From: Betaproteobacteria bacterium
GTDB taxonomy: Bacteria > Bdellovibrionota_B > Oligoflexia > Silvanigrellales > Silvanigrellaceae
Length of the DNA stretch: 64,000 bases
Assembly: GCA_016868315.1 (NCBI GenBank)
Contig: VGHE01000012.1
Span: forward strand, 1 to 64,000
Direction: 5' to 3'
Below are positions 28,555 to 37,595 of the stretch, piece by piece (position 1 is the first letter of the stretch; the number at the start of each line of letters is the position of its first letter). A model generated the notes under the pieces. The model did no database searches and had not been told where the DNA came from. It was given only the letters and a program-made list of their open reading frames with translations. A program made the position numbers and the translations under genes.

Positions 28555-31056
28555 ATGGTTGAATTCGGGTTTTATGCTCTCGTTTTGTCTCTGTGCCTGT
28601 CCCTGTATGCGACGGTCATGGGTGGTTTGTCTTTTTACAGGCCGCACAGGGGAATCATTTACAGCAGCCGCAATGCCCTTATCGCAGTGAATTTGTGTGT
28701 CACGATTGCATCTGCAATTCTTTGGATTGCTTTGCTGACAAACGATTTTTCGGTGAGTTATGTGTTCCGCAATTCAGCGAGCGATATGCCTCCTTTGTAT
28801 CTCCTCACGTCGTTCTGGAGCTCGTTGGAAGGAAGTCATCTCCTCTGGACACTCATCATGTCCATTGTGGTGACACTCTCGCTTCTCACGGTGCGTGAAA
28901 AAAATGAGTCGCTGCTTCCGGGGCTGTTGGTCTGTTATGGGTTTAGTCTTAGTTTCATGACTTTGCTTCTTGTGTGGGCTTCGGCTCCGCTGACGCGCAT
29001 GTTCCCTTTGCAGGATATTGGCCAGGGGATGAACGCGTTGTTGCAAAATCCCTACATGGCAGCGCATCCGCCGAGCTTGTTTGCTGGCTATTGTTCTCTG
29101 ATTGTCCCCTTTGGATATTCCGTTGCGGCGCTTATGCGTGGCTCATTCACCTCAGACTGGCTTGTTTCGGTTCGCCGCTGGACTCTTGCAGGTTGGGCGA
29201 TTCTTTCGGTGGGAATCTTCTTGGGCGGCAAATGGGCTTATGTAGAGTTGGGTTGGGCAGGCTATTGGGCCTGGGATCCAGTTGAGAACAGCTCTTTCAT
29301 GCCCTGGTTGGCAGCTACATCTCTTTTGCACACGCTCCTTATTCTCGATAAAACCAACCGTCTGCCCCGGCTTGCTTGTGTTCTTGCTGGTCTGGGATTC
29401 ATTCTCACGTTCCTCGGAACCTTCATCACGCGTTCGGGCGTGATCAGCAGTGTTCACTCATTTGCGGAAAGCAATATTGGTCCTGCGTATCTGATTTATA
29501 TCGTTATTTGGATGACCCTATTGCTGCTGTTGGTTGGATTGCGCGGACATCTTCTCCAAGGCGCGGCGCAGGCGCAGACCTGGGTTGTCTCGAAGGAGAG
29601 CGCACTTCTTTTCACGAATTTCTTTTTGCTTTTCCTACTCGCACTCGTGTGTATCGGTACGCTTTTGCCTCTTATTGTCGAGGCCGTGCGTGGCGTTAAA
29701 ATCTCCATTCAACAGCCCTTCTTCAATGCCTTTGCACCCTGGATTGGGGTTGGCCTGGTGGCACTTTTGGGTGTCGGAAATCTGATGCGCTGGCGCAACG
29801 GTAAAATCGAAGATCCAGTTGCCGGTCTGTTGTTTCCGGCAGTTTGGGCTTCCGTTCTTGCAGCTGTCTTGGCGTGGCACAAACAGCTCGATGTGCGTTC
29901 GGCTATTGGCTTTTGGCTGGTTCTCTGGACTGCATTGGTCATGGTCATGGATCTCGTCTTCAAGCTGCGTGCGCTGCGTTGGAATGGGCAATTGCTTTGG
30001 AAATTCAACCGCCCCTATTTGGGTTCTTGGATTGCTCACCTCGGATTCCTTATCGCAATTGCTGGTTTCTTGGGAGGGTACCGCGGCATTCATGCAGAGG
30101 CGGTCATTAACCACAACGAGTCTGCGCAGTTCTACGGCTACACACTCACCAACCGCGGAATGCGTGAAGAGGCGGCATACAATTATCGATACGTCTCTGC
30201 AGTGATCGAAGCCAAGAACGAAAAGGGCGAGGTTGTCGAAATCCTTCCGCGCCGCAGCAAGTACACAAACAAAGAGGAGTGGCTCAACGAAATCGGTATC
30301 CACTCAACCTTCTGGCACGATGTCTATCTTGTGCTTGCCAATTTCGACATGAACACCAAGCAGGTTTCACTCAAAATGCACATCAACCCAACCGTGAAGT
30401 TCGTTTGGACGAGTTTGGTTATCATGGTTCTTGGAGCCATGGTCGGATTAAGCCATCGCATCAAAAGGCGAAGTCTCGACGTCTCGCCCAACGGTTTGGT
30501 GCTTGAGTCTGCCACAGATGACTCGGATCTTTTGGCCGAATCTCTTGCGCCCGTGAGACTGTCTCAGAAGGTTCAATCGGCGATGATCGTGACGGGTGCC
30601 TTGGTACTTCTGGCTTTTGGTTTTTCAGGGACTGCATGGGCGAATGAAGATGCGAACAAAGCGCGCATGCAGTACTCTCAAGAACTGCTCGATATTGGGA
30701 ACGAGCTGCGTTGTCCGACCTGCCAAGGTGTCAGCATCCTTGAAAGCGATACTCCGCAGAGTGTTGCCATGCGCAAGGAAGTCGAGCGCCAAGTTGCCGA
30801 GGGAAAAAATAAGGATGAAATCATCCGTTTCTTTCGCGATCGCTACGGGGAGTGGATTCTACGCCAGCCGGATACAAGTCAGTCGTTTGGTCTAATGATT
30901 TGGGTGGTTCCAAGCGTTGGGCTTATCGTTGGACCTGCGTGGTTGATTTATGCACTGCGTTCATCGCGTCGGCGGGAAGAGGAAGAGCGTCTGGCGATCG
31001 AAAAGGAATTGCGCAACTATATTGAGCAGGCACGACGTATTGGGGTGCAAGCATGA
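28555..31056 (+). CDS. CcmF-CcmH fusion: cytochrome c haem lyase
   Basis: 833 residues in one frame. Residues 1 to about 650 are a multi-pass CcmF with the haem-handling WWD motif (GWAGYWAWDPVENSSFMPWL), PPSLFAGY and LGTFITRSGVISSVHSFAES. From about residue 677 comes a complete CcmH/CycL: signal-like helix (MIVTGALVLLAFGFSGTAWA), apocytochrome-reducing motif NELRCPTCQG (about 718) and a C-terminal membrane helix (GLMIWVVPSVGLIVGPAWL). In most bacteria these are separate proteins of one complex. An in-frame ATG at 30583 preceded by AGAAGG at 11 bases could also yield a free CcmH. No ccmABCDEG genes are in the window. Confidence 0.9.
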   Translation: MVEFGFYALVLSLCLSLYATVMGGLSFYRPHRGIIYSSRNALIAVNLCVTIASAILWIALLTNDFSVSYVFRNSASDMPPLYLLTSFWSSLEGSHLLWTLIMSIVVTLSLLTVREKNESLLPGLLVCYGFSLSFMTLLLVWASAPLTRMFPLQDIGQGMNALLQNPYMAAHPPSLFAGYCSLIVPFGYSVAALMRGSFTSDWLVSVRRWTLAGWAILSVGIFLGGKWAYVELGWAGYWAWDPVENSSFMPWLAATSLLHTLLILDKTNRLPRLACVLAGLGFILTFLGTFITRSGVISSVHSFAESNIGPAYLIYIVIWMTLLLLLVGLRGHLLQGAAQAQTWVVSKESALLFTNFFLLFLLALVCIGTLLPLIVEAVRGVKISIQQPFFNAFAPWIGVGLVALLGVGNLMRWRNGKIEDPVAGLLFPAVWASVLAAVLAWHKQLDVRSAIGFWLVLWTALVMVMDLVFKLRALRWNGQLLWKFNRPYLGSWIAHLGFLIAIAGFLGGYRGIHAEAVINHNESAQFYGYTLTNRGMREEAAYNYRYVSAVIEAKNEKGEVVEILPRRSKYTNKEEWLNEIGIHSTFWHDVYLVLANFDMNTKQVSLKMHINPTVKFVWTSLVIMVLGAMVGLSHRIKRRSLDVSPNGLVLESATDDSDLLAESLAPVRLSQKVQSAMIVTGALVLLAFGFSGTAWANEDANKARMQYSQELLDIGNELRCPTCQGVSILESDTPQSVAMRKEVERQVAEGKNKDEIIRFFRDRYGEWILRQPDTSQSFGLMIWVVPSVGLIVGPAWLIYALRSSRRREEEERLAIEKELRNYIEQARRIGVQA

Positions 31057-34827: not shown

Positions 34828-34856
34828 TTGAGTCCCGAATTAAGAGAGAAGAAATT

Positions 34857-37595
34857 ATGGCTGTTGATACACCATCTGCCCTGTCGAAATCTATCATGAA
34901 CACCCGCGTCGATCACAAAGTCCTGGTCGTCGTTCTCGACGGTGTGGGTTGGAAAGACACTCAGGATCACGTGACCCTGCAGCTGGCACATCAGGCTGGT
35001 TTGCTTCCTTCGGCAGCATTTGTTGGGGGCAATGCCGTTGCTGCTGCTTACACGCCCCATCTTTCGAGTCTGATGCAGAGATCCCTGAGCCGCACACTTC
35101 TTGCCCACGGTCCGAGCGTGGGTTTGCCCTCGGAAGATGACATGGGGAACAGCGAGGTCGGACACAACGCACTCGGTGCTGGCCGGGTTTTCGCGCAAGG
35201 TGCAAAACTTGTGGGCGAAGCGATTGCAAGCGGTCGTCTTTTTGAAGGCGAGGGCTGGAAAAAGGTCGCACACCGCTCTGAGCTGCACTCGGGAAAAAAC
35301 TCACTACACCTGTGCGGACTCTTTTCCGATGGCAATGTTCACAGTCATATCGATCATCTGTTCGCGCTTCTGACTGCCGCTAAAAAAGAAGGTGTGCGCA
35401 AAGTGCGTTTGCATCTTCTGCTTGACGGACGTGATGTTGGTCCCGACACGGCAGAGCTCTACGCTCAAAAGCTCAGCGCTTTCCTTCGAACCGTGGTGGA
35501 TAAAGATTTCGACTGCTGTGTTGCGAGTGGCGGTGGGCGCATGTTTGTGACCATGGATCGCTACGAGAGTGACTGGTCAATTGTCGAGCGCGGATACAAC
35601 GCTCACGTCTTGGGAGAGGGACGTGCTTTCAAGTCACTCGAGGAGGCTTTGCAAACCTTCCGTTCAGAGGGTCTGAAGACCGACCAGAATTTGCCTCCGT
35701 TTGTTGTTGCGAAAGATGGTCAACCGGTTGGAACTGTGGGCGACGGCGATAGTTTCGTGTTTTTCAATTTCCGGGGTGACCGTGCCATTCAGATCTCTCG
35801 CGCACTCACCGAACAAAACTTTAAGCCATTTGTGCGCAAGAGGTTTCCGCAGGTGGTTTATGCCGGAATGATGCAATACGACGGCGATTTGAAACTACCA
35901 GAAATTTATCTTGTTGAGCCGCCACTCATCGACAGAACCATGGGTGAGTTGTTGAGTGTAACGGGTGTCAAGCAATTTGCGTGCAGCGAGACTCAAAAAT
36001 ACGGGCATGTGACCTATTTCTGGAATGGCAATCGCAGTGGGAAGTTCAATGAGAGTCTTGAGAATTACGTTGAGATTCCATCTGATCTGCAGCCCTTTGC
36101 TGAGCGTCCTTGGATGAAATCTGCAGAAATCGCCGATCGAACCATTCTTGAAATGCAAAAAAGTAGCTTCAGGGTTGGGCGTATAAATTTTGCGAATGGC
36201 GATATGGTTGGGCACACAGGAGATTTTGCAGCCACACTTGTCTCGGTGGCCGCAGTTGATTTGGCGTTGGGTCGAATTCTTCAGTGCGCGATTGAAACCA
36301 ACACGGTTGTAATTGTCACGGCAGACCACGGCAACGCCGACGAAATGTTTGAGCTCGACAAGAAGTCAGGAAAAATACAATACGATACACGCGGTGTACC
36401 TCGCGCAAAAACGAGTCATACACTCTCTCCTGTACCGTTCTGTATTTTCAATGCTGAAGTTCTTCAGCGCGAAATTCACTTACGCAATGATCTTCCAAAG
36501 GCTGGCTTGGCCAACGTGGCCGCAACAGTGCTTGAGCTTGCCGGATTCCAGCCACCTTCAGCGTATGAACCGAGCTTGATTGTTCTCGGGCAGGAGAAAG
36601 GTTCGGGCGATTCCAAGTCCAGATTGACAGACACTGCTGCTGTAACCATGTCTCTTCATTCTGGCTATCATCCGAAGCTTGTTAAGAGGGCAGAGCTCGC
36701 ATCGCACCGGGAGTTTTTTAGTCTTGGCTTGAAGTCGGTGATGTTTGCAAAGACCGTAGCTGCTTTGCGCGCGCAAGACGGTTGCCCATGGGACAAAGAG
36801 CAAAACATCGAATCCCTGCGACCCTACCTCGTGGAAGAGGCTTATGAAGCGATTGAGGCTGCTGCACAATACGCAAAGGCAGGCGATTTGGAGACTGCGA
36901 AAGCTTATTGCGGTGAGCTGGGAGATGTTCTCTTGCAGGTTTTCCTCAACGCACAGATTGCCTCTGAGCAAAAGCATTTTACTGTGGCCTCAGTTTTTGA
37001 TGACATCTGTGAAAAGATGATTCGCCGTCATCCGCACGTTTTCGCAACATCGGAAAATGTAAAAACCTCTGCCGATGTGATGCGGCAATGGGATGCGATC
37101 AAGGCGCAAGAGAGCAACGCACAAGCGCTGAATCAGCCTAAATCCCTGTTGCATAAGACCCGCAAGAAGTCGGCGCAACCGACATTGGCTTGGACATCGG
37201 CCGTTTCAAAGGCCTCGTGGAAACTTGGATTCGCATGGAAGACTCTCGAGCAAACGTTCGCAGATCTCTCTTCAGAAATTGAAGAGCTAAGGCGCGAGGT
37301 TTTTGTCGATGCACCCGAGCGCAGTCGGGTTGCCGATGAAGTCGGAGATGTTGTTCTTGCGTTGGCAAATGTTGTTGTCTTTCTCAATGAGATGAAATTT
37401 TCTGGCGCTGAACCTTCGCTGGACTTGGATCTGTCGGCCCGCGCGAGCGTGGAGAAATTTCTTTCGCGATTTGAAGGAATGGAAAACATCCTGCGTGAAC
37501 GTGGAGTCGATGTGACAGAAGACTATGCCAAAGGTCTCTCACTTGAGGTTTGGGATGAGTTGTGGCGGGAAGCCAAGCGAAGAAAATACAGTTGA
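34857..37595 (+). CDS. Fusion of cofactor-independent phosphoglycerate mutase (GpmI) and MazG
   Basis: 912 residues. Residues 1 to about 580 are GpmI with its metal and catalytic motifs: LDGVGW, DDMGNSEVGHNALGAGR (about 94), FSDGNVHSHIDHL (about 157), HLLLDGRDVGP, TADHGNADEMF (about 488) and KTSHTLSPVPF. From about 620 a full-length MazG follows: LRAQDGCPWDKEQ, EEAYEAIEAAA, CGELGDVLLQV, RRHPHVF, and the second half EEIEELRRE with ADEVGDVVLALANVV. GpmI interconverts 3- and 2-phosphoglycerate; MazG hydrolyses NTPs to NMP and pyrophosphate. No ribosome binding site precedes internal ATG codons at the junction (e.g. 36648), so a true fusion is likely. Start at 34857 follows AGAGAAGAAA. Confidence 0.92.
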   Translation: MAVDTPSALSKSIMNTRVDHKVLVVVLDGVGWKDTQDHVTLQLAHQAGLLPSAAFVGGNAVAAAYTPHLSSLMQRSLSRTLLAHGPSVGLPSEDDMGNSEVGHNALGAGRVFAQGAKLVGEAIASGRLFEGEGWKKVAHRSELHSGKNSLHLCGLFSDGNVHSHIDHLFALLTAAKKEGVRKVRLHLLLDGRDVGPDTAELYAQKLSAFLRTVVDKDFDCCVASGGGRMFVTMDRYESDWSIVERGYNAHVLGEGRAFKSLEEALQTFRSEGLKTDQNLPPFVVAKDGQPVGTVGDGDSFVFFNFRGDRAIQISRALTEQNFKPFVRKRFPQVVYAGMMQYDGDLKLPEIYLVEPPLIDRTMGELLSVTGVKQFACSETQKYGHVTYFWNGNRSGKFNESLENYVEIPSDLQPFAERPWMKSAEIADRTILEMQKSSFRVGRINFANGDMVGHTGDFAATLVSVAAVDLALGRILQCAIETNTVVIVTADHGNADEMFELDKKSGKIQYDTRGVPRAKTSHTLSPVPFCIFNAEVLQREIHLRNDLPKAGLANVAATVLELAGFQPPSAYEPSLIVLGQEKGSGDSKSRLTDTAAVTMSLHSGYHPKLVKRAELASHREFFSLGLKSVMFAKTVAALRAQDGCPWDKEQNIESLRPYLVEEAYEAIEAAAQYAKAGDLETAKAYCGELGDVLLQVFLNAQIASEQKHFTVASVFDDICEKMIRRHPHVFATSENVKTSADVMRQWDAIKAQESNAQALNQPKSLLHKTRKKSAQPTLAWTSAVSKASWKLGFAWKTLEQTFADLSSEIEELRREVFVDAPERSRVADEVGDVVLALANVVVFLNEMKFSGAEPSLDLDLSARASVEKFLSRFEGMENILRERGVDVTEDYAKGLSLEVWDELWREAKRRKYS

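Follow-up and report, generated by a model that had tools for sequence, protein, structure and literature searches.

Most known cases of programmed slippage in bacteria come from dnaX, IS elements, and a small number of other genes. In the dnaX gene of Thermus thermophilus, which encodes a clamp loader, transcriptional slippage on nine A residues gives about 50% of the product (PMC1088944, PMC5009743). Slippage at runs of 9 to 10 A depends on the organism, and slippery runs are avoided in coding sequences (PMC1088944). A second type, -1 ribosomal frameshifting on A_AAA_AAG, operates in Escherichia coli dnaX and IS elements; the best -1 motifs yield about 0.3% in E. coli when no stimulators are present (PMC4066793). 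With respect to fused enzymes, the YabN methyltransferase-MazG protein (NF052436) offers an earlier example of a bifunctional protein whose C-terminal half is MazG, with a different partner; the protein described here scored 211 bits against the NF052436 cut-off of 525. In the literature searched, we found no earlier report of a GpmI-MazG fusion or of a slippage site at the gpmI-mazG junction, and MazG is absent from the main text of a frameshift catalogue (PMC3711429).

A Single Reading Frame for GpmI and MazG

Judged from its frame and its profile matches, the gene described in Table 1 joins two known enzymes in a hard-wired fusion. It is located in the window, by which we mean the whole stretch of 64,000 nucleotides that was analyzed, and it is present as a single copy in the window genome. 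The frame is intact from ATG to TGA, with zero internal stops. The purine-rich stretch 5' of the ATG is probably a weak ribosome binding site for the fusion gene.

Table 1. Coordinates of the fusion gene and its parts within the window.
Feature	Positions	Strand	Extent or basis
gpmI-mazG fusion gene	34857..37595	+	912 codons plus stop
Purine-rich stretch (AAGAGAGAAGAA region), 5' of ATG	34843..34854	+	read from sequence; putative
iPGM (GpmI) part, aa 21-569	34917..36563	+	profile and alignment
Variable linker, aa 576-633	36582..36755	+	alignment to relatives
Two-repeat MazG part, aa 634-907	36756..37577	+	profile and alignment
First MazG acidic motif, E660 to D690 (EEAYE...ELGD)	36834..36926	+	alignment
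Second MazG acidic motif, E807 to D831 (EELRRE...DEVGD)	37275..37349	+	alignment

A Pfam search with the protein as query revealed iPGM_N, Metalloenzyme, and two MazG (PF03819) stretches. The profile for cofactor-independent phosphoglycerate mutase (iPGM; TIGR01307) matched with 371.2 bits (cut-off 330.65) and covered model positions 2-497 of 504; the profile for two-repeat MazG (TIGR00444) matched with 187.5 bits (cut-off 148.3). The initial annotation of this DNA had proposed that one frame holds both enzymes in complete form with their metal and catalytic motifs kept, and the profiles and alignments agree with it on both counts. The iPGM active-site residues are S99, H162, R192/D193, R306/R309, K381, D449/H453, D490/H491, and H521. 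The catalytic serine and the metal ligands align to those of the Bacillus enzyme (1ejj), which we take to be S62, H123, R153/D154, R261/R264, K336, D403/H407, D444/H445, and H462, and they are invariant among five fusions. In the MazG half, acidic residues of the EExxE...ExxD type are found at E660, E661, E664, E687, and D690 of the first repeat and at E807, E810, E814, E828, and D831 of the second; the two repeats and their acidic motifs can be aligned with E. coli MazG (3cra/3crc). The iPGM half is predicted to be a working phosphoglycerate mutase (3-PGA to 2-PGA) and the MazG half a working NTP pyrophosphohydrolase. The protein differs from a typical full-length iPGM by its C-terminal MazG, and this MazG differs from its two-repeat counterparts in that it is joined to GpmI by a linker and does not start itself. 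The window GpmI matches the trypanosomatid iPGM structures 3nvl and 3igy with about 550 bits, compared to about 300 bits for the Bacillus-type 1ejj. AlphaFold2 models of five fused proteins had a mean pLDDT of 47, which is too low for use.

Candidate starts in frame between the two domains are an ATG at 36648, an ATG at 36741, and several GTG and TTG codons. None of these has a convincing Shine-Dalgarno sequence (both ATGs have 3/7 matches; the best candidate has 5/7 at poor spacing), in line with the initial annotation, which had noted no ribosome binding site at an internal start. One mRNA and one frame would give a single chain of about 100 kDa, with iPGM followed by MazG on the variable linker.

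Fused and Split Loci in the Family and Class

The comparison set comprised the class (58 genomes), with 14 genomes for the window's family, the Silvanigrellaceae, in which 13 loci keep gpmI; a wider search of the phylum yielded the same class only. When the same domain order was looked for in relatives, a continuous fused frame with 58-76% identity was found in five: G003, G007, G009, G013, and, in the assembled part of a partial locus, G001. The contig of G002 ends just before the junction, with 9 A beside the break; by comparison with G004, this locus is probably in frame and would be the sixth further fusion. The remaining six loci (G004, G006, G008, G010, G011, and G012) have gpmI and mazG as two overlapping frames. 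In the rest of the class, mazG usually adjoins gpmI and has its own start. At the 22 loci compared outside the family, the mazG start, mostly ATG, is at or near the gpmI stop, and the junction A-run is at most 6, except in G023. In this genome from another family (L064), mazG is a separate gene and has A9 just within its 5' end, about 27 nt past the gpmI stop. Long open frames in G043, G055, and G040 were considered as fusions and rejected, as stops part the genes.

Recurrence of the fused frame in five relatives at this level of identity excludes chance, a one-off stop loss, or a sequencing error in the window. The initial annotation had raised the loss of a stop codon between co-transcribed neighbors; the adjacency of gpmI and mazG in most of the class is in keeping with such neighbors, whereas a single, isolated loss is not compatible with the fused relatives. 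A neutral fusion that arose in this manner, with no special history or use, draws on the same adjacency. We consider it very unlikely: the fusion is common to five genera-level branches with both active sites kept, and the family junction has a conserved run of A residues. Neutral fusion accounts for the origin in part, but not for the data.

A Poly(A) Run at the Junction

A run of at least 9 A was found at the same place in 10 of the 13 family loci with gpmI, in frame in four (one of these inferred) and out of frame in six; homopolymer counts in draft or nanopore assemblies may be off by one base. The in-frame runs of G003, G007, and G009 have 10-11 A. In all six out-of-frame genomes, 9-10 A precede the gpmI stop by a few codons, and from the run onward the mazG frame is open in the -1 frame for more than 310 codons. 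The default product would be the fusion where the run is in frame, and GpmI where it is out of frame. The run is absent from the junctions of the window, G001, and G013. By alignment, the A9-A11 run of the relatives maps near the start of the window's linker, at about 36597-36640; every A or T run in the window gene's 5.5-kb locus is shorter than 8, which places the window gene itself outside a dnaX-type definition (at least 9 A at the junction). We consider the probable slippage site of the relatives a more interesting find than the fusion in the window.

At all 10 run-bearing loci, both frames other than that of mazG close within 10 codons of the run, somewhat faster than the background of the same gene; because the loci are related, we treat this rapid closing as supporting evidence only. 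Runs of at least 10 A are rare; G003 (59% GC, 4.3 Mb) has them at four places, one of which is this junction. G010 has 16 other runs of at least 10 A, of which two are well inside a long frame, and this scarcity of poly(A) inside long frames fits the reported avoidance of slippery coding runs (PMC1088944). The 10-A runs inside long open frames of G010 (L166 and L172) may be further slippage sites or may be due to chance. An argument from lysine codon usage was dropped, as AAA is already favored in G003 and G004.

Runs of A9-A11 are error-prone in sequencing, and one published Silvanigrellaceae genome is nanopore-only (PMC12321486). It could be that every locus in the family is truly an in-frame fusion and that the out-of-frame runs were miscounted. 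This explanation seems quite improbable to us: six assemblies, which range from a single contig to 500 contigs, would all have to err in the same phase; they differ in run length (A9, A10) and in the sequence past the run, and the conserved run would still lack an explanation.

Ordinary coupled genes, in which translation re-initiates past the gpmI stop at a non-ATG start such as TTG to give a separate MazG, would also be compatible with some of the split loci. In G008, G010, and G011, TTG is the sole start type before the MazG core and is found 14-65 nt beyond the gpmI stop. However, ATG is present in 0 of the 6 split loci, and in G004, G006, and G012 the sequence ahead of the core lacks GTG and TTG as well. 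In close pairs, moreover, the linker codons are constrained in the mazG frame back toward the run, and re-initiation does not account for the run itself. We judge re-initiation to be about as improbable as miscounted runs.

With T. thermophilus dnaX, the run-bearing loci share at least 9 A inside a gene, nearby stops in the other frames, and the expectation of a short and a long product. As in T. thermophilus, the long product is the in-frame default in four relatives; unlike there, the short product is the default in six, and the window gene is without the run. The predicted products here belong to central metabolism and house-cleaning, in contrast to a clamp loader. The likeness to -1 frameshifting is an in-phase A_AAA_AAG heptamer at the junction in G006, G008, and G011. 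In contrast to those systems, a search of the run-bearing loci for a downstream stimulatory hairpin found none; this absence argues against strong ribosomal frameshifting, but not against transcriptional slippage. Given that about half of the dnaX product arises by slippage at 9 A, compared to about 0.3% for unstimulated ribosomal motifs, and given that no hairpin was found, slippage by RNA polymerase is the likelier main route.

Selection on mazG and the Probable Order of Events

mazG is under purifying selection even where it is out of frame. Two out-of-frame genomes, G008 and G011, gave a dN/dS for MazG of 0.15; the in-frame G007 compared with the out-of-frame G012 gave 0.18. For the linker, calculated in the mazG frame, the values are 0.21 and 0.20 for the same two pairs; more distant pairs gave noisy values of up to about 1.

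In the GpmI phylogeny, the family forms one group in which in-frame and out-of-frame states are interleaved, and run-bearing sequences are found on all deep branches of the family. The members of two sister pairs, G009/G010 and G007/G012, differ in frame state. G009 and G010 are near-identical, with 31 mismatches and a single gap in 5.2 kb; the gap is in the run (A11 and A10, respectively). Both observations are also expected under phase variation, in which replication slippage would alter the run length and toggle the fused MazG on and off between cells, with no programmed slippage. We regard phase variation on its own as unlikely. It would leave six of the 10 run-bearing genomes permanently off, yet MazG is under purifying selection; in GC-rich genomes, of which G003 is one, the run has just 9-10 A; GpmI would be made in either state; and switching of this kind would be unusual for a house-cleaning enzyme. 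Phase variation and programmed slippage could act together.

By parsimony, the run is ancestral to the family and was lost in the ancestor of the window genome (G000) and G001, and also in G013; a fused frame remained in both cases. The deepest branching within the family is weakly supported, and the order with the run first and the hard fusion later therefore rests on parsimony.

Proposed History of the Locus

In our assessment, the locus as a whole is likely to be explained by a passage from two genes, via slippage, to an obligate fusion. The ancestor of the class would have carried gpmI and mazG side by side, with a separate start for each. The mazG start would have been lost in the ancestor of the Silvanigrellaceae, where gpmI would also have gained a run of 9-11 A at its end. 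Slippage of RNA polymerase on this run would produce free GpmI as well as GpmI-MazG from a single gene; -1 slippage of the ribosome on A_AAA_AAG-type heptamers may add a minor share. The genomic A count, by placing mazG in or out of frame, would set only the default product. Loss of the run in the ancestor of the window species and G001, and separately in G013, would then have made the fusion obligatory.

With somewhat less confidence, we favor the more specific proposal that in this family a single gene supplies, by programmed poly(A) slippage and at a set ratio, both the sole phosphoglycerate mutase and MazG, that single-A insertions and deletions flip the default with neither product lost, and that at least two lineages, including that of the window, have become hard-wired. 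We infer slippage itself, its rate, and its benefit from the comparisons above. The simplest benefit would be a fixed ratio, with GpmI high and MazG low; the hard-wired fusion of the window genome would hold it at 1:1. A regulatory link of glycolysis to nucleotide sanitation or (p)ppGpp is speculative, and channelling or stress signalling as the benefit has no support.

If this history is correct, a gene of central metabolism that uses programmed slippage would widen the scope of slippage, and the family and class would provide a natural series from separate genes via slippage to obligate fusion. Since the family would hold the intermediates between an operon and a fused gene, this route to gene fusion is directly testable. 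Gene callers are predicted to mis-call mazG as a truncated gene in genomes of this family.

Other Mutases, MazG Sequences, and a Neighboring Fusion

In the window genome, whose assembly is about 95% complete, we found neither an ApgM nor a GpmA above the cut-off. The single substantial histidine phosphatase resembles alpha-ribazole phosphatase most closely and falls below every curated cut-off. The only other MazG match is a small frame of 129 codons (L027, G000:C21:6213-6413), which contains one weak MazG repeat and probably encodes a single-domain enzyme in its own right. Given these results, the fusion is probably the genome's sole phosphoglycerate mutase and sole long MazG.

Among the six family genomes tested, G005 is the only one with a GpmA above the cut-off, which is located elsewhere in the genome. 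In G005 (L048, 2459-4594, minus strand), gpmI is gone from its syntenic place, which has dsbD on one side and the SseB gene on the other; mazG is kept there with a different N-terminal extension. The possibility that this N-terminus is a decayed GpmI was unsupported on comparison.

A second fusion is located close by in the window, at 28555-31056 on the plus strand: a frame of 833 codons that encodes CcmF (Cytochrom_C_asm, CcmF_C) followed by CcmH.
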